Shown here: piece after piece, positions 108 to 38,878 of the stretch
How the letters are laid out: each line of letters opens with the position of its first letter
Numbering within the stretch: the first letter of the stretch is position 1
DNA from: an uncultured cyanobacterium
GTDB lineage: Bacteria; Cyanobacteriota; Cyanobacteriia; Cyanobacteriales; Nostocaceae
DNA length: 59,568 bases
Reading direction: 5' to 3'
Assembly (NCBI GenBank): GCA_903848645.1
Contig: CAINGU010000009.1
Span: 1 to 59,568 of the forward strand
Made by a program: the position numbers and the translations under genes
The notes under the pieces: model-generated
What the model saw: the letters and a program-made list of their open reading frames with translations, nothing else
Database searches by the model: none
What the model was told of the DNA's origin: nothing

Positions 108-1253
108 CTAATAGTTTGGCATAACAAGTACCGAAGAGCCATAATTGGTACAACTTTAAAGCCAAGAACACTTGATCCATCCGATGCTTATGACATGATC
201 GGTCTGAATACAATTTATAATATAGGAGATTCTCTTTATACTTACAAATTAGGAACTACACAACTTCAACCCCGTCTAGCAACTCAGCTACCAAAAATTA
301 GCTCAGATGGTTTAACCTATGATATTCAAATTTTTAGCAATGGAGCTAATTTATTTAACGCATTTCTTACTCATGCTATAGATGTGGCTTATTTTTCTCT
401 TGAACCTGCTCAAATTGAGAGTCTAAAACAGGAGGCATTAATAGGAAAATGGCAAGTAATAACTTCTCCTGGTACGACTGTCAATTATTTGGGTCTTAAC
501 TTACGACACAAACCCTTGGACAATCCAATTGTCAGACAAGCGATCGCAATGCTCATTGATAGAAAATTACTAAATCAGCGAGTTCTCAAAAATCAAGCTG
601 AACCTCTATATAGCCTAGTACCAAATGTTTTTGATGTTTACAAATCCGTGTTTAAAACTCATTATGGTGATGGCAATATAGAGAAAGCAAAACACTTATT
701 AAAGCAAGCTGGTTACTCCTCAAATAACCCACTAAAATTACAAATTTGGTATCCATCCACATCCACAACTAGAGGTTTAGTTGCTCAAACTTTAAAAGCA
801 TTTGTTGATCAAAATCTGGGGGGAGTGATGCAATTAGAGGTTAATACTATAGAATCTACCAGTTATCTCAAAAATATTGGCAAAGGACTATATCAGATGT
901 TTTTACTCGAATGGTATCCAGACTTTTTAGATCCTGACAACTATATTCAACCATTTGTCGAATGTTCTGAAGGAAGCTTAGAAAAAGGATGTAAGGAGGG
1001 AGGTAGTCAAACATTGGGTTCTTTTTACTACAAAGAGCGCGTTAACCAACTAATTGATCAAGAGCGAAAGACACAAAACCCTAAAGTCCGAGCAGCTATT
1101 TTTGCAGAGATTCAAGAAATAATAGCGGAGGATATTCCTTACATACCTCTTTGGCAAAGTAAAAATTATATTTTTGCTCACCAAAGTTTAATTGATGTAA
1201 ATATTGAACCTAACTATTCTCTACCTTTTTGGAAAATTCAAAAGTCACATTGA
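108..1253 (+). pseudogene. ABC peptide-transporter substrate-binding protein (SBP family 5), 5'-truncated and internally deleted
   Basis: The reading frame resembles cyanobacterial family-5 solute-binding proteins that deliver peptides to an ABC importer. Homology-like sequence (GTTLKPRTLDPSDAYD) begins upstream of the first ATG at 195, in a frame open only from 108 and with no usable start or signal peptide. The usual length is above 500 residues; here about 350 remain. Near nt 321 the N-lobe motif GLTY runs directly into DIQIFSN, which in full-length relatives lies far downstream, so roughly 150 codons of the central lobe appear lost in frame. The C-terminal lobe (DRKLLNQRVL, DVYKSVF, YGDGNIEKAKHLL) is well kept. 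It is probably a relic, although the ORF from 195 could still be translated. Family call is fairly sure; the deletion size is from memory of the family. Confidence 0.7.
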
Positions 1254-1308
1254 TTTTTTATCTTCATAAAGGTACAATTATTATTAAGTAAATTTAATAA
1301 AAACAAAC

Positions 1309-2403
1309 ATGATTGGGGTAGCAGTTGTTGGCACAGGATTTGGTCAAAAAGTCCACATTCCTGCATTTCAAGCACATCATAATACTAAGATTGTCGCTGT
1401 TTATCATCGAGATATTCATAAAGCAAAAACCATTGCGGAAACTCATAATATTCCCTATGCTGGCGATAATTTAGCAGAAATTCTGGCTTTACCCACAGTT
1501 GAAGCTGTTAGTATTTCCACACCGCCATTTTTACACTATGAAATGGCTAAACAGGTTTTGCAAGCTGGTAAACATCTCTTATTAGAAAAACCCATAACTT
1601 TAAATGCCAATGAAGCTAAAGAATTATATCAGTTAGCCAAAAATCAAGATGTAATTGCAACTGTAGATTTTGAATTTCGGTTTGTTCCAGAATGGCAATT
1701 TTTCGCTCAACTTCTTGCTGACAATTATGTGGGGAATATCCGATTAATTAAAATTGATTGGTTGGGTTCTTCTCGCGCTGATACTTCTCGTCCTTGGAAT
1801 TGGTATTCTAGTAAAGAAAAGGGTGGTGGTGCATTAGGTTCTTTAGGTTCTCATGCTTTTGATTATATTAATTGGTTATTTGGTTCAGTTCACAAATTAA
1901 ACGCCCATTTAACTACTGCTATTTCTGAAAGAGTTAACCCAGCAACTGGAGAATTACAAGCAGTTGATACTGATGATACTTGTTTATTATCTCTAGAATT
2001 GGTAAATGGTACACCTTGTCAAGTTTCTATTAGTGCAGTTGTTCATGCAGAAAGAACTCATTGGATAGAAGTTTATGGTGATAAGGGAACTTTGGTTTTA
2101 GGTAGCAAGAATCAAAAAGACTATATTCATGGTTTTCAGGTTTGGGGTTCTCAATCTGGTGAACCTTTAAAGGAAATAGAAGTTCCGCAACAATTTCTCT
2201 TTCCTCAACATTATGATGATGGGCGGATTTGTGCTTTTCTTCGTGTTGTTGATGAATGGGTAAAAGGAATTACTAATCATCAAGAAATTACACCTTCTTT
2301 AAAAGAAGGAGTTTATTCGCAATTGTTAATGGATTTATGCCATGAATCTCATGAAACAGGAAGTTGGGTAAATGTGCCAAGTTTGGGAGAATTTTTAGAT
2401 TAA
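1309..2403 (+). CDS. Gfo/Idh/MocA-family NAD(P)-dependent oxidoreductase
   Basis: A 364-residue dehydrogenase of the glucose-fructose oxidoreductase/inositol dehydrogenase family, which oxidises or reduces sugars and polyols (substrate unknown here). The N-terminal Rossmann fold has the dinucleotide motif VVGTGFGQ (residues 6-13), and the family signature EKP is at residues 93-95 (LLLEKPITLN). The C-terminal alpha/beta domain follows, with GGGALGSLGSHAFDYINW around residue 180 giving the expected His. Length is normal. ATG at 1309 follows an AT-rich leader. The gene converges on the TOPRIM gene and their 3' ends overlap by 4 bases, so there is no room for a separate terminator. No pathway partner is adjacent. 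Confidence 0.9.
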   Translation: MIGVAVVGTGFGQKVHIPAFQAHHNTKIVAVYHRDIHKAKTIAETHNIPYAGDNLAEILALPTVEAVSISTPPFLHYEMAKQVLQAGKHLLLEKPITLNANEAKELYQLAKNQDVIATVDFEFRFVPEWQFFAQLLADNYVGNIRLIKIDWLGSSRADTSRPWNWYSSKEKGGGALGSLGSHAFDYINWLFGSVHKLNAHLTTAISERVNPATGELQAVDTDDTCLLSLELVNGTPCQVSISAVVHAERTHWIEVYGDKGTLVLGSKNQKDYIHGFQVWGSQSGEPLKEIEVPQQFLFPQHYDDGRICAFLRVVDEWVKGITNHQEITPSLKEGVYSQLLMDLCHESHETGSWVNVPSLGEFLD

Positions 2404-3143
2404 TCAAGTGATGATGACTGATAATTATTACAGAAATTATGTAGATAATTATAAAGTTCACGAAATAAAGGACATCTTTTTTGTAAATTTTCTGGGACTA
2501 TTTTTAGTAATAGCAAAGGGGTATGTAATCCTTTAGAAAATCTTTTTGATTGGATATCAAAGTTTAGTTCTAGTGAAATGCTACTATCAACTATTAGCTG
2601 AGATAATTTATCTTGACAACAATCTCTATCTTGATCATATTTACTAAAAGATTCAGGATCATCAAACGGGATATTTTTCTGGGTGCTTAACCACCAACGC
2701 ATTTTTTCATGTCTACCGCGAAAATCTGGATGTTTAGCAATAGTATTATCCCAATCTCCAATAATCCATGATTCAATTTCTGGAGCAGCAAAAGCGATAT
2801 ACTTAGGAATATCATTACATTCAGTTATTTTAGATATTGCTGATATAAACTTCTGTCTTTGAGAATTAACATCTCGACAATCTAAATCATCAAGAACTAA
2901 AATTAAATCACATTTTTTAGCTTCAGATTGCAAAGCAATAGGTAATTCTTGGGTAATTTGTTCAATTAAACTTTTACCTGTTTTACCATAACCAGTTACC
3001 TTCCCAGGTTTTGGTCCTGGTTTTATTCTTGCTGGTGTTTTCCGTTCAAATTGACAACCAGGAAAATTCTTTTCTAAAAAAGGAATTAATCCTCTAACTT
3101 CCGCTTCTCCACCACCTGCAAATACCCAAACTACCACGGCCAT
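2400..3143 (-). CDS. TOPRIM-like nuclease-type protein (DUF4276-like), partner of an ATPase
   Basis: 247 residues. The order of conserved acids matches TOPRIM/DUF4276 (RloB-like) proteins: an N-terminal GGGEAEVRGLIPFL with Glu13/Glu15, the DxD segment LILVLDDLD (Asp85-Asp88), then APEIESWIIGD (about 120-130), which is the DUF4276 hallmark. TOPRIM folds use such acids to bind Mg2+ for nucleic-acid cleavage. It is the second gene of a two-gene operon: its start overlaps the end of the upstream AAA ATPase by 13 bases, implying coupled translation. Such ATPase-TOPRIM pairs (OLD, AbiL and PARIS types) are phage-defence systems, so a defence role is inferred. No toxin activity can be read from sequence alone. 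Confidence 0.75.
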   Translation of the reverse strand: MAVVVWVFAGGGEAEVRGLIPFLEKNFPGCQFERKTPARIKPGPKPGKVTGYGKTGKSLIEQITQELPIALQSEAKKCDLILVLDDLDCRDVNSQRQKFISAISKITECNDIPKYIAFAAPEIESWIIGDWDNTIAKHPDFRGRHEKMRWWLSTQKNIPFDDPESFSKYDQDRDCCQDKLSQLIVDSSISLELNFDIQSKRFSKGLHTPLLLLKIVPENLQKRCPLFRELYNYLHNFCNNYQSSSLD

Positions 3144-4441
3144 CCTCCCACAGTAGGATCTCCTACACGGTATAAATCACCTAATTGCCATCCTTCTTCT
3201 AGTTTTTGATCTAAAATTTCATGAGAGAGTGTTTTCATAGAAAAATGCGTTTTATCTTGAGAATAAAAACAATAAACATTTTCTAAGCAATCTGTAAAAT
3301 GATCTAAAAGATCAGGACTATGAGTAGTGATAATAATTTGAGTTTTTCTCGCAGCTTGTTTTATCCATTCTGCTAAAATTGGCATCCAAGATATGTGCAA
3401 ACCTAATTCTGGTTCATCAATAACTAATAAGGAAGGTAAAACAGGAGAATGTAATATAGTCGCCCAGCATAACATTCTTACCGTTCCATCTGACATTTCT
3501 GTAAGATAAAATGGTTCTTTAATATCTTCAAAATGCCATTCTAATGTTAATGATAATCGCCCAGAACGAAGAGAACGCAAACGACGAGTTTTAGGTAAAA
3601 TAGACTTCATAGCATTGTTAATGCTGTCTTCAAAGTCAATATTTTCTTGGGTTAAATTTTCAAATACTAAAGGTAAATTATTTCCTGATGTTGATAAATA
3701 AATATCATTTCCTCCTATTTTTGGTTCTGAATTTCTAATTTGATGCAAATCCATGTTATTCGCATTATAAAATTGCCATTGAGAAATAAATGCAATTAAC
3801 TCTCTCCTAATTTTATAACCAGGTGTAGTTATCAGTTTATTTTGGCTATTTTCTAATAATTCTGGAAGTACATTTAAACCTAGAATGTTTGCAGGAATAT
3901 TATCTAATACTTCAAAATGTGTTCCTGATTTCTGTTCACCTTGATTATATACTGAGATCAGACCTTTACCTATTCTTTGCAGTTTTGGATCATTAAATTT
4001 ATAATAATAAAAAGGTGATGAATCTGGATTTACTAAATTATCTCCACTATATAAAGATTCTTGATGAATAGTTGATTTCTGTTTTTTCCTATCTACAAAC
4101 AAATCAAGATCGAGAACTGAATTTTTCGGTTGACTCGTATCTTGTAATTGTTCTGAAAAACCATACTGAAATTTAATGACCGCAGGACTAGCAACACTAT
4201 TATCTAATATTCTATCATTGCCAATTTTACTAATTGCCTCTTCAAAACTAGTAATACCACGACTTTCATCAGAAACATTAGTTAAACAATCCTTTAAAAA
4301 TTTTAATGTACTGATAAAATTACTTTTTCCAGAACCATTTGCCCCTATAAAAATGTTGAGATTTTTTAACTCTACGGCTGGAGATAACGAGAGATTTTTA
4401 TAGTTTTGGGTAAAAATAAATTTAAGAATTGGTTGATCCAT
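3131..4441 (-). CDS. AAA family (AAA_21, ABC/SMC-like) ATPase of a putative defence pair
   Basis: 436 residues with an SMC/ABC-type ATPase fold. Walker A is GANGSGKS (33-40), the signature-like LTEMSDGTVRML lies in the second half, Walker B is LLVIDEPELGLH (338-349) and the H-loop is TTHSPDLL (about 372-379). The long insert between Walker A and the signature replaces a coiled coil, typical of AAA_21/AAA_15 ATPases found beside TOPRIM or HNH effectors. It is the first gene of the pair and overlaps the TOPRIM gene. In OLD-, AbiL- and PARIS-like systems such ATPases sense phage and control the nuclease; here that role is inferred from family and layout. Confidence 0.85.
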   Translation of the reverse strand: MDQPILKFIFTQNYKNLSLSPAVELKNLNIFIGANGSGKSNFISTLKFLKDCLTNVSDESRGITSFEEAISKIGNDRILDNSVASPAVIKFQYGFSEQLQDTSQPKNSVLDLDLFVDRKKQKSTIHQESLYSGDNLVNPDSSPFYYYKFNDPKLQRIGKGLISVYNQGEQKSGTHFEVLDNIPANILGLNVLPELLENSQNKLITTPGYKIRRELIAFISQWQFYNANNMDLHQIRNSEPKIGGNDIYLSTSGNNLPLVFENLTQENIDFEDSINNAMKSILPKTRRLRSLRSGRLSLTLEWHFEDIKEPFYLTEMSDGTVRMLCWATILHSPVLPSLLVIDEPELGLHISWMPILAEWIKQAARKTQIIITTHSPDLLDHFTDCLENVYCFYSQDKTHFSMKTLSHEILDQKLEEGWQLGDLYRVGDPTVGGWPW

Positions 4442-5467: not shown

Positions 5468-6238
5468 CTATAAATTTGTAGCTGCATGGATAGCAGTTAA
5501 AATTGCATTGTTGATAGCTAAATCCTTTTTTGATAACATAATATCTTCTGACGTAGTACGTTGAGCAACGACAGCACAAACAGCCGCAGCGGCGAAATTA
5601 TAGACACCTGCCATTTTGAATAACATTCCTGATTCCATTTCATAATTCAAAATATTTAAGCGGCGATATTCTTCGGTAATTCCGTTAAGAGATCGGATTA
5701 AATAAGGATTAGCTGAATCAGTCCGTTCTTGTCCTTCATAAAAAGTATCAACTGATGCGGTAATTCCCAAATAATGCTCAATTTTTAATTCTTGTGCTGC
5801 TTTTACTAAAGCCACTGTGAGAAAAGGATCTGCTGTGGCTGGATACTCTACAGGTGCAATATCATTAGCTGCACCTTGACGACACAAAGCCCCGTTACTA
5901 ATAACAATATTCCCAACGGATATATGAGGTTGAATTGAGCCACAAGTACCAATGCGAATAATTTTCTGAATCCCTACTTGTACTAACTCATTGACAACAA
6001 TACTCAAAGAAGGCGCACCCATACCACTGGTAGCAGATAAAATCTTTTTTCCATTGGGTAAATAGCCTAAATAGCTATGAAGTCCCCGATTTTCTGATAG
6101 TAACTGCACATTTTGTAAATGAGTTTGGGCGATAAAATTAGCCCGCTGGGGATCACCTGATAATAAGGCAATTTCGGGAAGAAATTCACCTAAATCAGCT
6201 TTACTAAAACCAATATGATATAGCATTTTATTATTCAT
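5468..6238 (-). CDS. Nucleoside phosphorylase (uridine/purine phosphorylase family)
   Basis: 256 residues of the PNP/UDP superfamily, which cleaves nucleosides with phosphate in salvage. Visible motifs: LSGDPQRA near the N-terminus (phosphate loop), TSGMGAPSLSIVVNEL (phosphate/ribose site), IRIGTCGS (about 95-101), FYEGQER (uracil-type base pocket) and NYEMESG (the Glu/Met-Glu that binds ribose). The EGQER plus YEMES pattern favours a uridine-phosphorylase-like enzyme over DeoD, but base specificity is not certain. It lies 14 bases downstream of yifB/comM on the same strand and may be co-transcribed with it. Confidence 0.85.
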   Translation of the reverse strand: MNNKMLYHIGFSKADLGEFLPEIALLSGDPQRANFIAQTHLQNVQLLSENRGLHSYLGYLPNGKKILSATSGMGAPSLSIVVNELVQVGIQKIIRIGTCGSIQPHISVGNIVISNGALCRQGAANDIAPVEYPATADPFLTVALVKAAQELKIEHYLGITASVDTFYEGQERTDSANPYLIRSLNGITEEYRRLNILNYEMESGMLFKMAGVYNFAAAAVCAVVAQRTTSEDIMLSKKDLAINNAILTAIHAATNL

Positions 6239-6252
6239 GTTTTTTTAATTGA

Positions 6253-7785
6253 TTACTGCATTCTATCAATTGTCCGATATTGAATTGCTTCGGCTACGTG
6301 CTGGGGTTTGAGGTTTTCATCTCCTGCTAAATCTGCAATAGTTCGTGCTACTTTGAGAATGCGATCGCTCGCTCTTGCTGATAACCCTAATTTCCTAATT
6401 GCTGCTTCTAATAAATTCCGACTAGCATCATCTAATTTACACCATTTTTGTAAATGACGACTTTGCATTTGAGCATTACATTGTAAATTTTCTTCTTGCT
6501 GAAACCGAATTACAGCTTTTTCTCTAGCTTTTTCTACTCGTTCCGCTACAGATTTCGACGCTTCTCCCGTTGGTTGTTGGGTAATTTCCTCTGGTTTCAA
6601 ACGATTGACTGCTACTTGCAAATCAATTCTATCCATTAATGGTCCAGACAATTTTGCCCAATATTGTTCCCGTTGTCGAGGTGAACAGGTACATCCTTGA
6701 ATTGTATCACCATAATAACCGCAAGGACAGGGATTTGTACTGGCTACTAATGTGAATTGTGCGGGAAAAGTGACAGATTGTTTAGTTCGAGAAATTGTCA
6801 CAAAACCATCTTCCAAAGGTTGACGCAAAAACTCTAAAACATCTCTTTTAAACTCTGTTAATTCATCTAGAAAAAGTACACCTCTATGAGATAATGAAAT
6901 TTCACCAGGACGAGGAAAAGTACCACCACCAACTAAAGATGGACCAGATGCAGAATGGTGGGGACTTCTAAAAGGTCTTTCTCTAACTAAAGAACCCCGA
7001 TTTTTCAATAATCCAGCCACAGAATGAATGCGTGTCACTTCCAAAGATTCAGGAAAACTTAAAGGTGGTAAAATTCCCGATAACCGCCGTGCTAACATCG
7101 TTTTTCCACTGCCTGGTGGTCCAACAAAAATCAAATTATGTCCCCCCGCAGCCGCAATTTCTAAAGCTCTGCGTGCGTGCGCTTGTCCTTTGACATCTTG
7201 TAAATCTGCTAAATTTAAAGATGTTTCCTGAGAAGTTTCTACTGCTTTATTTAACTGAACAGGTTTGTATTTTTTAGGATTATTTAATAAGTCCACCACA
7301 TCAGCAACATCTTTGCAACCATAAACCGCCAAACCTTCAACAACAGCCGCTTCTTGGGCATTATCAACGGGAACAACTAAACCCGCAATTCCCATTTTCT
7401 TTGCAGTTGCCGCAATCGGTAAAACACCAGCAACCGGACGCAAACTACCATCTAAAGAAACTTCACCTAAAAATAAAAAATCTCCTAACAAATCGGCGTT
7501 AACTTGTTCAGAAGCTGCTAAAATTCCCACACTAATTGGTAAATCAAAAGCTGGTCCTTCCTTTCGTAAATCTGCGGGAGTTAGATTAATGACAATTTTC
7601 CGCATGGGAAACGCAAAACCCGCATTTTTCAAAGTGGCTTTTACCCGTTCTTTAGATTCTTGAATAGCGGAATCTGGTAAACCTAAAATGACAATTCCCG
7701 GTAAACCCCCGGAAACATCAACTTCCACACCCACTTTTACAGCGTCAATCCCAATGATAGATGCACTCCAAACTCTAGCCAGCAT
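6253..7785 (-). CDS. comM: YifB/ComM-type Mg-chelatase-like AAA+ ATPase
   Basis: 510 residues, the standard length. The N-terminal ChlI-like/Lon-type domain (LARVWSASIIGIDA) is followed by an AAA+ module with Walker A GPPGSGKTML (about 217-226), Walker B LFLDELTEF, and the ASTNPCPCGY sensor region. The C-terminal Mg_chelatase_C domain contains SARASDRILKVARTIADLAG. In naturally transformable bacteria ComM is a helicase aiding branch migration during DNA integration. Most filamentous cyanobacteria carry one copy. comF lies close by, although on the other strand. Confidence 0.95.
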   Translation of the reverse strand: MLARVWSASIIGIDAVKVGVEVDVSGGLPGIVILGLPDSAIQESKERVKATLKNAGFAFPMRKIVINLTPADLRKEGPAFDLPISVGILAASEQVNADLLGDFLFLGEVSLDGSLRPVAGVLPIAATAKKMGIAGLVVPVDNAQEAAVVEGLAVYGCKDVADVVDLLNNPKKYKPVQLNKAVETSQETSLNLADLQDVKGQAHARRALEIAAAGGHNLIFVGPPGSGKTMLARRLSGILPPLSFPESLEVTRIHSVAGLLKNRGSLVRERPFRSPHHSASGPSLVGGGTFPRPGEISLSHRGVLFLDELTEFKRDVLEFLRQPLEDGFVTISRTKQSVTFPAQFTLVASTNPCPCGYYGDTIQGCTCSPRQREQYWAKLSGPLMDRIDLQVAVNRLKPEEITQQPTGEASKSVAERVEKAREKAVIRFQQEENLQCNAQMQSRHLQKWCKLDDASRNLLEAAIRKLGLSARASDRILKVARTIADLAGDENLKPQHVAEAIQYRTIDRMQ

Positions 7786-20325: not shown

Positions 20326-20326
20326 A

Positions 20327-20446
20327 TATACTAAACACGGTTGAGAGATGGACTTTTGTAAAATCACGAAAAACCCGGATTTGTAGGGGTTTAGCAGTGC
20401 TAAACCCCTACCTACAGAATCAAATAATTAAGCCGTGTTGAGTATA
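20327..20446. mobile_element. MITE, about 120 bp, with terminal inverted repeats
   Basis: Terminal repeats TATACTAAACACGG (20327) and CCGTGTTGAGTATA (20433) match in 13 of 14 positions. The flanking or terminal TA on each side is consistent with an IS630/Tc1-type TA target site. Inside is a perfect palindrome with 14-base arms GTAGGGGTTTAGCA / TGCTAAACCCCTAC (20383-20411), also present at 24494. There is no coding capacity, so movement would need a transposase supplied elsewhere. Confidence 0.7.
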
Positions 20447-20599
20447 GTTGGACTATTTTTAATATTTTCGGGAATTTTGTATCAAAGCCCAGGGGATTTG
20501 TACAAAGTTATGTGGGTGCTGTTTTTGATAGTTCCACCCGCGCTTACTTCCCCAGTTTTATCGGCACTTTGGGGCGGTAATCTTTATCCCTATATTTGA
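20447..20599 (+). pseudogene. Fragment of a membrane protein (possibly a cation/H+ antiporter subunit)
   Basis: Directly after the MITE, a frame without a start reads VGLFLIFSGILYQSPGDLYK and then WVLFLIVPPALTSPVLSALW, i.e. two transmembrane segments and a short tail ending at 20599. It resembles the C-terminal half of small MnhG-like antiporter subunits, but that assignment is weak. Its 5' part appears to have been removed by the MITE or earlier rearrangement. From 20600 to 20763 I see no gene. Confidence 0.4.
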
Positions 20600-21484: not shown

Positions 21485-22039
21485 ATGAAAAAAATTGGTG
21501 TTTTCGGTTCGGCTGTAGATAGCCAAGATTCTCTTAATCAAAAGTCCAGAAAACTTGGAGAACAAATTGCCAAAACTGGTAACAGTATTGTGACAGGAGC
21601 TTGTACTGGTCTTCCTCTTCATGCTGTTTTAGGGGCTAAAAGTTTGGGTGGATATTCAATTGGATTTTCAGCTACCTATAGTCAAGAAAAACACATGGAG
21701 GTAATGGGAACTTCTCCAGAATTATATGACAATATTATTTTGATACCGGAAGATTACAAATACAAAGATAATGTGCAAGTTTGCCGCAAATATAGGAATG
21801 TTGAATCTGTAGCAGCCTGTGATGCAGCTATTTTTATTAGTGGGAGGTGGGGAACTTTAAATGAGTTATCAAATGCTTATGACATGAATAAAATTATTGG
21901 TATTCTCAGTGATACTGGTGGAGTTACAGATCATGTTCAATTACTGCTCGACTCTTTCAAAAAAGAAACAAAATGCCAAGTATTTTTTGAAAAAGATCCA
22001 TTGAATCTCATTAATCTAATTTCTCAAAAACTGCAATAA
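21485..22039 (+). CDS. SLOG/LOG-like Rossmann protein (TIGR00725-like), possible nucleotide phosphoribohydrolase
   Basis: 184 residues. The N-terminus KKIGVFGSAVDS is a Rossmann strand and nucleotide loop; ITGAC-like IVTGACTGLPLHAVLGAK follows. The LOG active-site-type pair is visible as Arg101/Arg104 (RKYRNVESV) and GRWGTLNEL (120-128), the counterpart of PGGxGTxxE, with Pro-Gly replaced by Gly-Arg-Trp. LOG enzymes cleave the N-glycosidic bond of nucleoside monophosphates. First gene of a compact operon with GTP cyclohydrolase II, OMP decarboxylase and SDR genes. Catalysis is inferred; a binding or regulatory role is also possible. Confidence 0.75.
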   Translation: MKKIGVFGSAVDSQDSLNQKSRKLGEQIAKTGNSIVTGACTGLPLHAVLGAKSLGGYSIGFSATYSQEKHMEVMGTSPELYDNIILIPEDYKYKDNVQVCRKYRNVESVAACDAAIFISGRWGTLNELSNAYDMNKIIGILSDTGGVTDHVQLLLDSFKKETKCQVFFEKDPLNLINLISQKLQ

Positions 22040-22073
22040 CTGTTTTGCTTTCAAATAAAAGTAAGTTAATCTT

Positions 22074-22718
22074 GTGAGTTTGGAAATGATTTCAGAATAC
22101 AAAATAATTGATAAGGTTTTGGGAGTTTCACTAACTACTGAAAGTGGGATTAAAAACCTAAAAATGGGAGGTTATACAATCCAAAACAATCAAATAGACA
22201 AAGAACACGGAATTATTTATCGAGGAAATATTCAAAATCCCGGTAAACCTGTTTTATTACGAATGAATTCTGCTTGCTATACAAGTGATATTTTTGGTTG
22301 TCAAAGATGTGACTGCAACTGGCAACTGCAAAGAGCAATGGAGATGATTTCTCAAGAACAAGATGGCTTGATAATTTACCATTTCGATCATGAAGGTAGA
22401 GGCGCTGGGTGGACAAATAAATTGAAAACCTATTCATTAATGGAAAAAACCAAATGTACGTCTTTTGAGGCATTTGTCAGTTTAGGTATTCAGCCTGATT
22501 TAAGAGATTATTATTCTGCTATAGCTATTCTCAAAGATTTAAACATAAAATCCGTGAATCTTATTACCAATAATCTTGAAAAAGCAGAATTTTTAACCAG
22601 TAATGGGATTGAAGTAAATCTAAAAATTCCTCTAGTTAATTCTCGGAAAGAATGGCAATCTTATCTAACTTCTAAAAAAGAACAATTTGGTCATGAAATA
22701 AATGAAGAATATTTTTAG
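22074..22718 (+). CDS. ribA: Stand-alone GTP cyclohydrolase II (RibA-like)
   Basis: 214 residues from a GTG start (ATG at 22086 is an alternative). Zinc ligands are at Cys68, Cys79 and Cys81 with the exact C-x10-C-x-C spacing. EGRGAG (107-112) replaces the usual EGRGIG, and DLRDYY and TNNLEKAEFL match the ribose/phosphate side. The enzyme opens the guanine ring of GTP, releasing formate and giving a diaminopyrimidine nucleotide. Cyanobacteria normally use a fused RibBA for riboflavin, so this is probably a pathway-specific paralogue. It follows the SLOG gene by 34 bases. Confidence 0.85.
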   Translation: MSLEMISEYKIIDKVLGVSLTTESGIKNLKMGGYTIQNNQIDKEHGIIYRGNIQNPGKPVLLRMNSACYTSDIFGCQRCDCNWQLQRAMEMISQEQDGLIIYHFDHEGRGAGWTNKLKTYSLMEKTKCTSFEAFVSLGIQPDLRDYYSAIAILKDLNIKSVNLITNNLEKAEFLTSNGIEVNLKIPLVNSRKEWQSYLTSKKEQFGHEINEEYF

Positions 22719-22800
22719 TATATCTAAACTTATAAAAAATATTACCTCAATCATGATATAAATAATCAAGAATATTTTTAATGAGGATGTTTTTGAAGAT

Positions 22801-23709
22801 ATGCACTTTAGCGATCAACTTATTGAACAGCAAATCCAAAAGAGTGACTTGGTAGTTGGAATCGATCCGAATTTTGATTTGATGCCAGAATTTTTACTGC
22901 CAACAAGTAATAGCTCTCAGGAAATTACCAGAGCCTTAACTAGCTTCTCACAAATCATTATTGACAGTTTATCGGATTTAATTCCAGCCGTAAAGTTCCA
23001 ATCTGCATACTTTGAGCAGTTTGGCAGTAGTGGCATAAATGCTCTTGTTGAATCTATTAAATATGCTAAAACCCACAATCTTCTAGTAATTTTAGATGCA
23101 AAAAGAGGAGATATTGATTCAACTTCACTTGCTTATGCTAAGGCTTATTTAGAGGGACAGGTTGCATTGAAAAACGGAATAGTGATCAATTCAGATTTAG
23201 TGGTTGATTGCATCACAATTAACCCCTTTTTGGGAGAAGATAGTCTGATGCCCTTTGTAGAAGTTGCGACTAAATGTGGTAAAGGCTTATTCATTTTAGT
23301 TAAAACTTCTAATCCTGGCTCAAGTATGATTCAAGATATATCAGTCAACGGAAAAAAAATATTTCATCAACTGGCAGAACTGGTTAATCAATTAGGTAAA
23401 GATAGCATCGGAAAATACGGTTACAGTTGTATAGGTGCTGTTGTGGGTGCGACATTTCCTGATGAAGCAAAGCGACTAAGAGAAATTATGCCAAATGCGA
23501 TTTTTCTAGCTCCTGGAGTAGGGAGTCAAGGAGGAAATATTGAAAGTATTGTTGATAGTCTCGGACATGATGGCAAAGGTGTAATTGTTCCTATTTCTAG
23601 AGGTATTACATACTTTTCAAATAGGGATATGTCCTTACCGGATTATCAATTAGCAGTTCGAGAAAGAGCTATTCATTTCATTCAAACCTTGAAAAAGAGA
23701 GACAGCTAG
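22801..23709 (+). CDS. pyrF: Orotidine-5'-phosphate decarboxylase, type 2 (long form)
   Basis: 302 residues, the long (mycobacterial-type) class. Catalytic array DAKRGD at Asp99, Lys101 and Asp104, preceded by VVGIDPNFD and the lysine-bearing VKFQSAYFEQFG. Phosphate-side motif PGVGSQGG and the late SRGITY are present. It decarboxylates OMP to UMP or acts on a related nucleotide. Overlap by one base with the following SDR, and tight spacing with GTP cyclohydrolase II, make it a member of this operon rather than of pyrimidine biosynthesis. Whether the genome has a second, type-1 pyrF cannot be seen here. Confidence 0.88.
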   Translation: MHFSDQLIEQQIQKSDLVVGIDPNFDLMPEFLLPTSNSSQEITRALTSFSQIIIDSLSDLIPAVKFQSAYFEQFGSSGINALVESIKYAKTHNLLVILDAKRGDIDSTSLAYAKAYLEGQVALKNGIVINSDLVVDCITINPFLGEDSLMPFVEVATKCGKGLFILVKTSNPGSSMIQDISVNGKKIFHQLAELVNQLGKDSIGKYGYSCIGAVVGATFPDEAKRLREIMPNAIFLAPGVGSQGGNIESIVDSLGHDGKGVIVPISRGITYFSNRDMSLPDYQLAVRERAIHFIQTLKKRDS

Positions 23710-24422
23710 TGAGCAGTGATTTACTGATTATATTAGGTGTAGAGGGAGTGCTAGGCTCTGGGATATCTTGTCAAAATAGAATGTCGAATATTGACATTAT
23801 GGGGATAGACTTGCCAGAAGTCACTCGTCTCAAGCAAATCAAATATTATATTTCCTGTGACGTTCGCAATAAGGATCAAATTCAATCAACTGTAAATCAA
23901 ATTCCTATTCATGAATATGAGAAAATTATTCTCATCAGTTGTATTGGTAAATTTGGTGTGGAAACATTTAAGTCTCCATTTTTGGAAGAGGATAGTTTAT
24001 ATGAAAGTGTCCAGGTTAATTTGTTAGGTGTTTCTCATTTTATTATCTCATTAGTGAAGAAATGTTTGCAGCAAAACCTATCAACACGAATCATAGTAGT
24101 TGGTTCTGCGGCAGCTAATGTTGGTAGTCGAGATGTGGGATATGGAATTTCTAAAGCGGGACTTAATGGTTTAGTTTTAAGTTTATCTAAGTCATTGGCT
24201 GCTCAAAATTCAGTTATTATAGGTGTTAATCCAGGAATATTTGAATCTGAAATGTCTGAAAAAGTTTCTTTAGATAGACAATTACAGGCTGTAGAAAGTA
24301 CACATATTAAGCGCAAAGGAAGCGTCAATGAAATTATAAATTTTGTCACCTATCTTGCTCTTGATGCACCTGATTATTTAACAGGTTCTGTTTTAGGGAT
24401 TAATGGAGGGCAATATACTTAA
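23709..24422 (+). CDS. Short-chain dehydrogenase/reductase (SDR)
   Basis: 237 residues from GTG at 23709, whose first base is the last base of the pyrF stop. The cofactor loop is GVEGVLGSG (10-18), and the catalytic set Asn104, Ser133, Tyr145 and Lys149 (YGISK) is complete. The PG near NPGIFESEM and the C-terminal GSVLGINGGQY are SDR-typical. It is an NAD(P)-dependent reductase/oxidase with unknown substrate, the last gene of the operon. A repeat-rich intergenic stretch follows. Confidence 0.88.
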   Translation: MSSDLLIILGVEGVLGSGISCQNRMSNIDIMGIDLPEVTRLKQIKYYISCDVRNKDQIQSTVNQIPIHEYEKIILISCIGKFGVETFKSPFLEEDSLYESVQVNLLGVSHFIISLVKKCLQQNLSTRIIVVGSAAANVGSRDVGYGISKAGLNGLVLSLSKSLAAQNSVIIGVNPGIFESEMSEKVSLDRQLQAVESTHIKRKGSVNEIINFVTYLALDAPDYLTGSVLGINGGQYT

Positions 24423-24493: not shown

Positions 24494-24522
24494 GTAGGGG
24501 TTTAGCACTGCTAAACCCTTAC
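24494..24522. repeat. Palindromic repeat, second copy of the MITE core
   Basis: GTAGGGGTTTAGCA-C-TGCTAAACCCTTAC differs at one arm base and the centre from the palindrome inside the MITE at 20383. It is flanked at a distance by AGGGACT (24451) and AGTCCCT (24567), which may be remnant ends of a related element. It lies in the leader of the bestrophin gene. Confidence 0.65.
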
Positions 24523-24612
24523 CCAATGACTACACCACTAAAAAATTGGATAATTTATTTTTTGGTAGTCCCTTACAACTTACAACATTCTGAAATTGGA
24601 TTAAAAAACTTT

Positions 24613-25512
24613 ATGGATAAACTATTTAAAGGATCGTGGCTGCATCTTGCGTTCACTCTACGCGGCTCTATTATTCCTGCTGTCTTCCCTCGTGTCATTC
24701 TCGTGGGTATTTTTGGACTGATAATTACAATTTTATATAATCAAGGAGTGCCGATATTTTTTCCCAAGTTAGAAATCCTGATTCCCAGTATTCTTTTAGG
24801 TTTACTATTAGTTTTTCGCACAAATACTGGTTATGATCGCTTTTGGCTAGGTCGGCAAACATGGGGAGCAATAATTGGGATATCTAGTCATTTAGCCAGG
24901 CAGATTTGGGTTAATGTTCAAGAAAAAACACCGCAAGATCGAGTAAATAAAGTTGCGGCAATGTACTCTATAGCAGCTTTTGCAGTAGCGACTAAACAGT
25001 ATCTACGTCGAGAACCTATTAATGAGGAGTTAGAAGACCTTCTGATTAAATCTCGACTGGAAAAGATTACATTAGTGAGCAACCCAGCTTTGGAAATTGC
25101 GCTTTGGATTCAAGATTACCTAAAGCAACAACATCAGCAGCACAACTTAATTATTGATGAATTTCAAAGTCTACAGCAAATATTGAGTTCAGTAGTTGAT
25201 AAATTTGGTGTTTGTATATGTATCCTAATGACACCACAACCCAAGGCTTATACTATTCATTTAAGACAACTAACTCTGATTTACTGTCTCACCTTACCAA
25301 TGCGTCTAGTTGGAGATTTTGGCTGGTGGACAAGTCCGATTATTGCGCTAATTTCCTTTACCTTATTTGGGATTGAAGAGATTGCTTTAGAGATTGAAAA
25401 TCCTTTTGGTCGAGATTTTAATGATATTCCTCTGGATAATCTTTGTGATGTCATTCTCAATGAAGTTGAAGGTGTGATGAAATTATCTCCTAAAAGCCCC
25501 AAATCTTCTTAA
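24613..25512 (+). CDS. Bestrophin-like anion channel
   Basis: The ATG at 24613 (MDKLFKGSWLH) is chosen: the longer frame from 24526 begins inside the palindromic repeat region and adds residues not expected in the family. About 299 residues with the bestrophin features LRGSIIPAVFPRVILVG (first helix) and LLGLLLVFRTNTGYDRFWLGRQTWG (pore/neck). C-terminal part includes LPMRLVGDFGWWTSPIIALISF. Bestrophins are pentameric chloride/bicarbonate channels, in photosynthetic organisms often thylakoid. It precedes an FAD monooxygenase by 24 bases. Confidence 0.87.
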   Translation: MDKLFKGSWLHLAFTLRGSIIPAVFPRVILVGIFGLIITILYNQGVPIFFPKLEILIPSILLGLLLVFRTNTGYDRFWLGRQTWGAIIGISSHLARQIWVNVQEKTPQDRVNKVAAMYSIAAFAVATKQYLRREPINEELEDLLIKSRLEKITLVSNPALEIALWIQDYLKQQHQQHNLIIDEFQSLQQILSSVVDKFGVCICILMTPQPKAYTIHLRQLTLIYCLTLPMRLVGDFGWWTSPIIALISFTLFGIEEIALEIENPFGRDFNDIPLDNLCDVILNEVEGVMKLSPKSPKSS

Positions 25513-25536: not shown

Positions 25537-26799
25537 ATGGAACTACCAATTTGTAGAGGAGAAGGCAGAAAAGTTGGACTTCGTATTGTTGTTGTCGGTG
25601 CGGGAATTGCAGGTTGTTTAATTGTTCAAGGTTTACAGCAAGAACCAGATATTGAATTAATTTGTATTGAGAAAGGTTCTGAAAAAAATGTTCTAGCTGG
25701 AACAGGTTTAAATATTGGACCTAATGCTCTCAAAATTTTAACCCAGTTCAATTATGAACTTGCTATCTCACTACAAGCAACAGGAGTAAGTTTACCTTGG
25801 CTATCTTGGAAAGCGGGATTAACAGATGGAACATTAGTTATGGATTTACCACTTTTGCAAGTAGCTGATAATCCTGGCATTCGTATCCGCTGGTCAGAAT
25901 TATATCATCAACTCAGAAGACCAATTGCCGGAAGAGTTTGGTATAACACCACTATTAAGTCCATGAGATATGCTGAATCTGCCATGAAAGGACCACTTGA
26001 GTTAGTTGTGGAAAACCAGATTACTGGTGAACTTCAAATACTCAATCAGGTTGATTTGATCATTGGTTGTGATGGCCGCTACTCACAAGTTCGTAGTACA
26101 TTTTTTGGTGGACAACCAGAACCAACTTATCTTCCAGTGTGTATCTACCGGTTACTAGTTCCTAATCGCGCCGATAATTTAATTGATGATTATCAGCAGT
26201 GGTTTCACAATGGTCATCGTTTACTTGCTTTTGCAATTCCTGGTAATGAAGTTTATATTGCAGGATCATTTCCTTTAAATTCAAATTTGGATATTTCCGA
26301 GGAAAATAAACAACCGCATATTCTCCAACAACTCTATAAATCTGAACCTGGTTATAGTGAAGTCTGTCAATTTCTAGTTGATTCTATCTGTAACCACGTG
26401 GATAATATTCATTGGGCTAGAATTCAAGAAATCCCCCCTGTATTTGGTGATGAAAAAGATCATGTTCTTTGTTTAGGAGATAGTTCTCATGCCATGTTTC
26501 CTACTTTAGGACAAGGAGCTACTCAAGCTTTTGAAGATGGCTGTTTCTTTGTTTCTCAGATCCGCCAATGTTTGACTGAAGCAAAGAAAAATAATAGTCA
26601 ATTAGATGTATCATCTCTTATTGCCAAAGTAGAAGCGAAACGTCGCTCTCGAATTAAGTTTGTACAACAGTTCTCTCGTGAAGCTAGTGATTCTCTGCTG
26701 TCTGGATCAAACCCAATGGCTGAAATAAACTCGAAAATGCAAGCTCCATTTCTGGAAAAATTAATGAAATTGTATCAGAATACTCCTGAAATTATATAG
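25537..26799 (+). CDS. FAD-dependent monooxygenase (PHBH/salicylate-hydroxylase-like)
   Basis: 420 residues. N-terminal ADP-binding motif IVVVGAGIAGCLIVQGL (GxGxxG), mid-protein VDLIIGCDGRYSQVRS (the DG motif) and LCLGDSSHAMFPTLGQGATQAFEDG (GD motif for the flavin ribityl). These three fix it to the class A flavoprotein monooxygenases. The substrate is unknown. It starts 24 bases after the bestrophin gene and is probably co-transcribed with it. Confidence 0.9.
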   Translation: MELPICRGEGRKVGLRIVVVGAGIAGCLIVQGLQQEPDIELICIEKGSEKNVLAGTGLNIGPNALKILTQFNYELAISLQATGVSLPWLSWKAGLTDGTLVMDLPLLQVADNPGIRIRWSELYHQLRRPIAGRVWYNTTIKSMRYAESAMKGPLELVVENQITGELQILNQVDLIIGCDGRYSQVRSTFFGGQPEPTYLPVCIYRLLVPNRADNLIDDYQQWFHNGHRLLAFAIPGNEVYIAGSFPLNSNLDISEENKQPHILQQLYKSEPGYSEVCQFLVDSICNHVDNIHWARIQEIPPVFGDEKDHVLCLGDSSHAMFPTLGQGATQAFEDGCFFVSQIRQCLTEAKKNNSQLDVSSLIAKVEAKRRSRIKFVQQFSREASDSLLSGSNPMAEINSKMQAPFLEKLMKLYQNTPEII

Positions 26800-38799: not shown

Positions 38800-38878
38800 T
38801 CCCTGTTCCCTGTTCCCTGTTCCCTGTTCCCTGTTCCCTGTTCCCTGTTCCCTGTTCCCTGTTCCCTGTTCCCTGTTC
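38800..38878. repeat. STRR: about eleven tandem copies of a heptamer
   Basis: TCCCTGT repeated without breaks over 79 bases, from 38800 to 38878. Short tandemly repeated repetitive (STRR) heptamers are characteristic of heterocyst-forming cyanobacteria and are usually intergenic. It separates the Bax1 gene from the next gene. Function unknown; length likely varies between strains. Confidence 0.95.

Follow-up and report, generated by a model that had tools for sequence, protein, structure and literature searches.

To our knowledge, only some gene clusters divert guanosine triphosphate (GTP) cyclohydrolase to specialised metabolism, those for toxoflavin, pseudoiodinine and 8-azaguanine among them. 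Orotidine 5'-monophosphate (OMP) decarboxylase is normally confined to one essential reaction. Here we describe four neighbouring genes that bring members of the two families together, in a stretch of 59,568 nucleotides from an uncultured Nostocaceae cyanobacterium (assembly GCA_903848645.1, contig CAINGU010000009.1, positions 1 to 59,568; hereafter the window). They encode, in order, a SLOG protein, a stand-alone GTP cyclohydrolase II (GCHII), a type-2 OMP decarboxylase (OMPDC) and a short-chain dehydrogenase/reductase (SDR). With a probability of roughly 55%, we consider them the conserved core of an uncommon cassette, probably spread by horizontal movement, whose product would be a small specialised metabolite derived from an aminopyrimidine ribonucleotide.

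In the 8-azaguanine (ptn) cluster of Streptomyces, a GTP cyclohydrolase is proposed to open the imidazole ring, the LOG-like nucleosidase PtnC is proposed to free the base later and so end the synthesis, and an efflux gene is present (PMC7109123). However, the cyclohydrolase employed there is GCH I-like, a nitric oxide synthase also takes part, its operon as listed in the part of the source available includes neither an OMPDC nor an SDR, and PtnC did not cleave the GCHII product itself (PMC7109123). We found neither a GCH I-like enzyme nor a nitric oxide synthase among the ten window genes scanned, which contain a GCHII instead.

The pseudoiodinine (psd) and toxoflavin (tox) clusters resemble our locus in having a GCHII homologue recruited from riboflavin synthesis (PMC9911603). 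Unlike our locus, the psd cluster encodes two methyltransferases in addition to a RibD homologue and to WD40 and sulfatase-modifying-factor proteins, and its seven genes, as given in the accessible part of the source, include no SLOG, OMPDC or SDR (PMC9911603). A scan of ten window genes at the cassette revealed no RibD-like, WD40, sulfatase-modifying-factor or methyltransferase gene, and the comparison with azapteridines such as toxoflavin, made in an original prediction from the sequence, is therefore no more than an analogy. The angustmycin (agm) cluster has a LOG-family enzyme, the adenosine monophosphate (AMP) phosphoribohydrolase AgmA, inside a nucleoside-antibiotic cluster, but AgmA supplies adenine from AMP, and no cyclohydrolase or OMPDC is among the enzymes named in the portion of the source at hand (PMC8599513). 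The cassette appears to work like the GTP-cyclohydrolase-initiated clusters known to us without being a member of any.

Text searches of the literature returned no paper naming the four-family combination, which is weak evidence since subscription papers lie mostly outside their coverage. None of the matches listed contains the names of both GCHII and OMP decarboxylase, and these searches found no paper on GCHII and a halogenase in cyanobacteria.

A conserved four-gene cassette in cyanobacteria

The cassette consists of the following genes:

21485-22039, + strand: SLOG cluster 4 protein, 184 amino acids, putative nucleoside-monophosphate N-glycosidase (PF18306, 87 bits)
22074-22718, + strand: stand-alone GCHII-family enzyme, 214 amino acids, GTG start (PF00925, 137 bits)
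22801-23709, + strand: type-2 OMPDC, 302 amino acids, accessory copy (TIGR02127 pyrF_sub2, 259 bits, cut-off 110.6; PF00215, 91 bits)
23709-24422, + strand: SDR, 237 amino acids, GTG start (PF13561, 76 bits; PF00106, 59 bits)

The gaps between them are 34, 82 and -1 bases, the last two genes overlapping by one base. The GCHII carries C68-x10-C79-x-C81 and E107GRG, the OMPDC has DAKRGD at residues 99-104, and the SDR keeps N104, S133, Y145 and K149 (Asn-Ser-Tyr-Lys). Coordinates of the open reading frames (ORFs), profile scores and a residue check thus bear out the neighbourhood, families, gaps and motifs that had been claimed for these genes. In scans for promoters and terminators, the counts did not clearly exceed those of shuffled sequences (12 against 14.7 and 2 against 1.3).

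We sought the SLOG protein in four overlapping draws of cyanobacterial genomes, roughly 640 in total, and obtained matches in 1 of 291 (E 1e-10), 2 of 291 (1e-5), 6 of 388 (1e-20, profile) and 2 of 388 (1e-15) genomes. Together these are six different genomes: that of the window, Okeania sp. SIO2C9 (G570) and SIO1I7 (G582), Microcoleaceae cyanobacterium MO_207.B10 (G616, locus L078), Oscillatoriaceae cyanobacterium Prado104 (G558, locus L075) and the cyanobacterial genome G331; no other genome of the window's genus in the draws has a SLOG match. The order SLOG, GCHII, OMPDC, SDR is identical in all six, and in each the reading frame of OMPDC shares bases with that of SDR (1, 1, 4, 14, 14 and 14). 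This fixed order indicates that the four genes are no chance grouping; it agrees with the co-occurrence on which the original prediction was to be judged, and the rarity of the cassette does not refute it.

Identities to the window proteins are 60-77% for SLOG (four other sequences; 71% in G331 and 77% in Prado104), and 60-64% for GCHII, 63-69% for OMPDC and 60-66% for SDR (five others each). In MO_207.B10, SLOG is spread over two frames and an in-frame stop interrupts the GCHII close to its beginning, possibly through assembly errors.

In the four loci compared, the guanine-plus-cytosine (GC) content of the cassette lies below that of the rest of the locus (0.380 against 0.455, 0.383 against 0.445, 0.300 against 0.345, and 0.319 against 0.333), and the cassette genes of the window, at 31.6-36.5% GC, are slightly AT-richer than the window as a whole (37.3%). 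This lower GC, together with the patchy distribution, suggests lateral movement, and the cassette has probably been moved horizontally. SLOG had no match in plasmid or phage searches, and seven scans of viral contigs with single proteins or alignments found no relative.

Other GCHII and OMPDC copies in the host genomes

Besides the cassette copies, a GCHII match lies in a 571-residue, RibBA-sized frame of the window genome (5.4 Mb in 119 contigs, 99.99% complete), and an OMPDC match in a 245-residue frame, a type-1 PyrF; the cassette genes are therefore not the only ribA and pyrF genes of that genome. Likewise, G331, Prado104 and the two Okeania genomes each possess, elsewhere than in the cassette, a frame of 589-633 residues with a strong GCHII match, together with a 239-254-residue PyrF and a frame of 497-505 residues, the size of a PyrF-PyrE fusion. 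Because these four near-complete carriers retain RibBA, PyrF and the fusion-sized frame, the cassette GCHII and OMPDC are accessory in five genomes, that of the window included, as had been supposed. In MO_207.B10, an 83%-complete metagenome-assembled genome (MAG), the cassette GCHII is the sole GCHII found, and a fusion-sized PyrF frame is present.

Type-2 PyrF matches above the cut-off occur in 66 genomes of a draw of 194 cyanobacteria. Apart from that of the window, all lie in frames of 408-708 residues (for the most part 480-530), about as long as a PyrF-PyrE fusion; the window genome itself has no such match beyond its cassette copy. With these type-2 domains of other cyanobacteria the cassette OMPDC shares only about 26-30% identity, against 47% with a Clostridial pyr-operon PyrF, and it is therefore not an ordinary cyanobacterial type-2 enzyme.

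A divergent GCHII subfamily

We compared the GCHIIs using the residue numbering of the E. coli enzyme (chain 2bz0). The cyanobacterial cassette enzymes keep Arg49, Ser52, Cys54, Cys65, Cys67, Gln70, Glu92-Arg94, Tyr105, Asp126, Arg128 and Lys154, with Thr or Ser at position 149, and the C-x10-C-x-C zinc site, EGR, Asp126, Arg128 and Tyr105 are found in all six. They share with RibA and RibBA the family, the zinc cysteines, EGR, Asp126/Arg128, Tyr105 and Lys154, but differ from them by having Asn in place of His51, Ala in place of Glu53, Asn-Trp in place of Gly68-Phe69 and Ala or Val in place of Ile96, and have no riboflavin genes around. The resulting signature is R[IM]NSAC...CDCNWQ...G[AV]G, in which GIG has become GAG or GVG. 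Residues 49-53 form a GTP-binding segment of GCHII, and the changes in the pocket region predict an altered substrate or product specificity. Among the residues kept, Arg128 and the three zinc cysteines are named as functional in GCHII in the part of the source available (PMC10366380).

When a nanoarchaeal member described below is counted, position 51 is Asn in all seven cassette GCHIIs, and the seven form one clade with a support of 0.996 in a tree of 37 sequences. By contrast, His51-Ser52 and GIG, without Asn-Trp, are found at all 19 other nanoarchaeal GCHII loci examined and in all five cyanobacterial RibBAs, and the combination of H51N, NW and GAG/GVG occurs in none of these ordinary enzymes. 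At the level of sequence, the cassette GCHIIs are a distinct subfamily. Profile scores for the window enzyme are 150.3 bits with the subfamily model NF001591 (cut-off 148), 143 bits with the equivalog model TIGR00505 (cut-off 205.85), 157 bits with the RibA-type model NF006803 and 22 bits with NF005536 (cut-off 403), which would represent the URC1 branch.

Three carrier cyanobacteria possess a third PF00925 protein, in frames of 417-439 amino acids, which may belong to the UTP (uridine triphosphate)-cyclohydrolase branch. These candidates for UTP cyclohydrolase/URC1-type proteins are in the same Pfam family as the cassette GCHII but are longer and score low against it, and the two of the three that were read (L096, L097) keep RVHDEC, so that the change to R[IM]NSAC is not their pattern. 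Outside chromosomes, 206 plasmid records match GCHII, and the four loci read are riboflavin operons of ribD-ribE-ribBA-ribH types; matches are also present in 5 phage records.

SLOG and OMPDC

Enzymes of the LOG family carry the motif PGGxGTxxE. The cassette SLOG proteins have SGRWGTLNE or GGRWGTLNE at this position, which does not match it, and score 25 bits with the LOG-family model TIGR00730, below its cut-off of 96.35. On both counts, the protein would be LOG-like in action at best, and we file it under SLOG cluster 4. R104 and E127 are invariant in the five sequences aligned (that of the window counted) and lie 23 residues apart, the same spacing as between positions 95 and 118 of PtnC, whose putative catalytic pair is Arg95/Glu118 (PMC7109123). 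The resemblance to LOG enzymes that had been noted therefore extends to the Arg/Glu pair and its spacing, and not to the LOG motif or the family cut-off. SLOG is probably a nucleoside-monophosphate N-glycosidase, in which R104/E127 would correspond to the LOG-type catalytic pair.

The catalytic set of type-2 OMPDC is Lys-Asp-Lys-Asp, and in all six cyanobacterial copies K65, D99, K101, D104, Q243 and R267 are invariant. OMPDC matches were found in 32 plasmid records, ten of which were read, and in 9 phage records. Plasmids of Ochrobactrum, Agrobacterium, Paracoccus and Sinorhizobium (L060, L063, L118, L119) carry a type-2 pyrF without annotated pyrimidine genes around it, and that of a Monoglobus plasmid lies within a normal pyr operon. 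Six of the OMPDC plasmid loci (L060-L065), compared by sequence, gave neither a GCHII nor an SDR match, three more have neither gene in their annotation, and an Ensifer record carries no annotation. The cassette OMPDC shares VKFQ and VP-SRG motifs with the copies on rhizobial plasmids, but since their grouping in the tree has low support (0.53), we make no claim of close kinship.

An overlapping pair of tmk and type-2 pyrF genes was seen outside pyr operons on plasmids of Lactococcus (L062, 7405-8954), Enterococcus faecium (L121, 5405-6954) and Vibrio lentus (L064, 7406-8834), in the last case preceding genes for a glycosyltransferase, an acyl carrier protein, an adenylation-domain protein and a phosphopantetheinyl transferase. 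On pKL001, the tmk next to a type-2 pyrF is cut off.

A nanoarchaeal variant

When the genomes of 84,980 species were scanned with a cropped GCHII alignment, 96 stretches gave a match and seven of them encode a relative: the carriers Okeania sp. SIO2C9 and SIO1I7, Prado104 and MO_207.B10, two ordinary RibBAs and one contig of a nanoarchaeal MAG. The two RibBAs, in Gastranaerophilales and Armatimonadetes, were rejected as cassettes, as ORF reading placed them in riboflavin operons. On the nanoarchaeal contig (L083), genes for a radical S-adenosylmethionine (SAM)/SPASM protein with weak similarity to viperin, a methyltransferase and a B12-binding radical SAM protein (1130-4393) lie directly upstream of GCHII, and are followed in the same row by SDR, a thymidylate-kinase-like gene and a type-2 OMPDC; the tmk and type-2 pyrF pair is thus present here too (5960-7557).

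The nanoarchaeal SDR scores 106 bits against the window SDR (BLASTP) and 64 bits against its best PDB chain (phmmer), a rough comparison as the programs differ, and the two SDRs have in common the motif SAAA-x-VGSRDV. In the OMPDC, DGKRNEI replaces DAKRGDI, the last catalytic Asp being a Glu. The binning of this contig into the MAG could be wrong; its neighbouring genes look like archaeal regulators. Within the nanoarchaeon's phylum, 41 of 237 genomes have GCHII matches (its own included), and no cassette was seen at 19 other GCHII loci examined, which is limited evidence given flanks of at most about 1.5 kb each.

Neighbouring genes and repeats

Around the cassette of the window we noted four further features:

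24526-25512, + strand: bestrophin-like membrane protein between SDR and the monooxygenase, of doubtful membership in the cassette (PF25539, 267 bits)
25537-26799, + strand: flavin adenine dinucleotide (FAD)-dependent monooxygenase (HpxO/PRK06847-like), a putative tailoring enzyme and presumed member (81-86 bits, below the HpxO/PRK06847 cut-offs)
20326-20447, no strand: dispersed repeat with a palindrome, upstream of the cassette (found in many copies throughout the genus; z -7.8 for folding as single-stranded DNA)
24494-24522, no strand: second copy of the palindrome of this repeat just downstream of SDR, with one mismatch (pattern search)

The monooxygenase is 67% identical to one encoded about 0.8 kb upstream of SLOG in Prado104 (L075). 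At the five other cassette loci, the stretches that were read contain no bestrophin homologue, and related sequences are found elsewhere in sister genomes at 65-67% DNA identity. In G331, a flavin-dependent halogenase-like gene lies between SLOG and GCHII. Flavin-dependent halogenases are characterised by GxGxxG and WxWxIP, and the protein has GSGISG at 58 and WMWVIP at 286, and matches tetracycline 7-halogenase (E 1.3e-153) and PltM (2.9e-104). The same locus has an EmrB-type efflux gene convergent on SDR, as well as EamA genes behind SLOG. In two Okeania loci, a PrmC-like methyltransferase gene is found about 0.6 and 1.7 kb from SDR (the copy in L076 by a family scan), and in one of them (L077, 8588-8971) a 127-residue FAD-oxidoreductase-like frame, recognised by ORF reading upstream of SLOG, is possibly the remnant of a tailoring gene.

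The dispersed repeat is about 120 bp long, and its palindrome consists of two perfect 14-base arms. A pattern search found four arm matches in the window, two per site, where 0.31 were expected, and the two palindrome copies bracket the cassette. Farther downstream, at 38800-38878, lies a perfect tandem array of the heptamer TCCCTGT in 11 copies.

Proposed pathway and alternative explanations

All four families act on ribonucleotides or are suited to tailoring them: the product of GCHII and the substrates of LOG and OMPDC enzymes are nucleoside 5'-monophosphates. The four genes would fit a route in which the GCHII, with its changed pocket region, cleaves a ring in GTP or a similar nucleotide and so yields an aminopyrimidine ribonucleoside 5'-monophosphate. 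Intermediates of the pathway would be decarboxylated by OMPDC and oxidised or reduced by SDR, with which it is co-translated, and SLOG, acting like a LOG phosphoribohydrolase, would later free the modified base from ribose 5-phosphate. Strain-specific flavoenzymes would finish the product, by hydroxylation in the window strain and in Prado104 and by halogenation in G331, and transporters would export it. We infer the substrates, the order of steps, the product and the participation of the flanking flavoenzymes. That the genes serve a dedicated pathway is very likely, and that its product is a specialised metabolite is likely; GTP as the starting material is only somewhat favoured. The small pyrimidine-derived metabolite of the original prediction is made more likely by the flavin enzymes that adjoin the cassette in two relatives and the efflux gene in one, while its start from GTP stays conjectural in view of the pocket changes (His51 to Asn).

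Several observations weigh against this reading. Among the markers of the GCHII subfamily, E53A is weak, as 6 of 19 ordinary nanoarchaeal GCHIIs have Gln, Gly or Ser at position 53, and CDCNWQL is also present in two ordinary RibBAs, which retain His51 and GIG, so that CDCNWQ by itself does not identify the subfamily. The OMPDC of the cyanobacteria is canonical throughout and fits ordinary OMP decarboxylation equally well. The nanoarchaeal contig has no SLOG match, and the cassette GCHII and OMPDC are the sole members of their families found in that genome, where accessory status can therefore not be claimed. The tailoring neighbours vary between strains: the bestrophin gene separates the window monooxygenase from the cassette, and ORF lists inspected by eye show no intact flavoenzyme or transporter beside the cassette in the three Okeania/Microcoleaceae loci. 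Finally, the cassette identities of 60-77% are close to, and only slightly below, the 68-73% at which the housekeeping RibBA and PyrF of the window genome match those of the carriers, and lateral movement is therefore not proven.

The canonical OMPDC could also have another role in a metabolite cassette, that of a self-protection copy: if a pyrimidine nucleotide analogue, formed as the product or on the way to it, inhibited the host OMPDC, a divergent type-2 copy could sustain synthesis of uridine monophosphate (UMP). The cassette OMPDCs of cyanobacteria retain all canonical residues, that of the window is only about 26-30% identical to cyanobacterial type-2 domains, and the hosts hold another PyrF. 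However, the overlap of the OMPDC and SDR frames in six of six genomes suggests a pathway step, and the archaeal OMPDC has DGKRNEI rather than DAKRGDI and is the only OMPDC match of its genome; we regard self-protection as an improbable, if serious, alternative. A stronger departure would be pyrimidine breakdown of the URC type, with the GCHII-family enzyme opening UTP, SLOG freeing ribose 5-phosphate and SDR reducing malonic semialdehyde. PF00925 includes UTP cyclohydrolases, some SDR enzymes reduce malonic semialdehyde, and OMPDC makes UMP; UTP cyclohydrolase is also named in the title of a 2021 paper by Zhang that PMC12507026 cites. Nevertheless, the cassette GCHII scores with RibA-type models and not with NF005536, the putative UTP-cyclohydrolase-like paralogues in two carriers keep RVHDEC unlike its R[IM]NSAC, and the halogenase, the major facilitator superfamily (MFS) pump and the radical-SAM neighbours are ill-suited to catabolism, which leaves this route with little probability.

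We give very little credence to a role in defence, through an antiviral nucleotide analogue of the viperin kind. The archaeal radical-SAM protein has weak viperin similarity (PADLOC pVip, 56 bits) and is accompanied by the thymidylate-kinase-like gene, and ORF reading places a NACHT-like ATPase gene near both Okeania cassettes, but the viperin score is 43 bits against an NCBIfam cut-off of 180, no radical-SAM or kinase gene was seen in the cyanobacterial cassettes, and the sole PADLOC match among the four proteins of the window cassette is that of SLOG to PsyrA, which is weak (20 bits). It is just as hard to believe that spare riboflavin and pyrimidine enzymes were simply acquired together: both families are housekeeping and their catalytic residues are largely kept, whereas the gene order is fixed in six of six genomes, the GCHII subfamily is distinct, the cassette contains no RibD, lumazine synthase or PyrE gene, and other GCHII and PyrF genes are present in the window genome and four carriers.

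Implications

Beyond a specialised-metabolite cassette, we consider it possible, though doubtful, that these enzymes represent a third class of the GCHII family, neither RibA nor UTP cyclohydrolase, with a rebuilt pocket and coupled to an SDR and to an OMPDC that decarboxylates a nucleotide other than OMP. Such a module would be old or mobile, being present in cyanobacteria and in a nanoarchaeon, with base release by SLOG in the former as opposed to nucleotide phosphorylation in the latter, and would lead to halogenated or hydroxylated products of the pyrimidine type.

Annotation by name would probably assign ribA and pyrF to the cassette and so hide the cluster, while the combined signature of Asn at position 51, CDCNWQ and GAG/GVG may be used for genome mining. 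As four small genes, the pathway could be expressed in laboratory strains and is thereby directly testable. If our proposal is true, the cassette would represent another specialised pathway based on GTP cyclohydrolase, with a GCHII subfamily of changed pocket and a recruited OMP decarboxylase.

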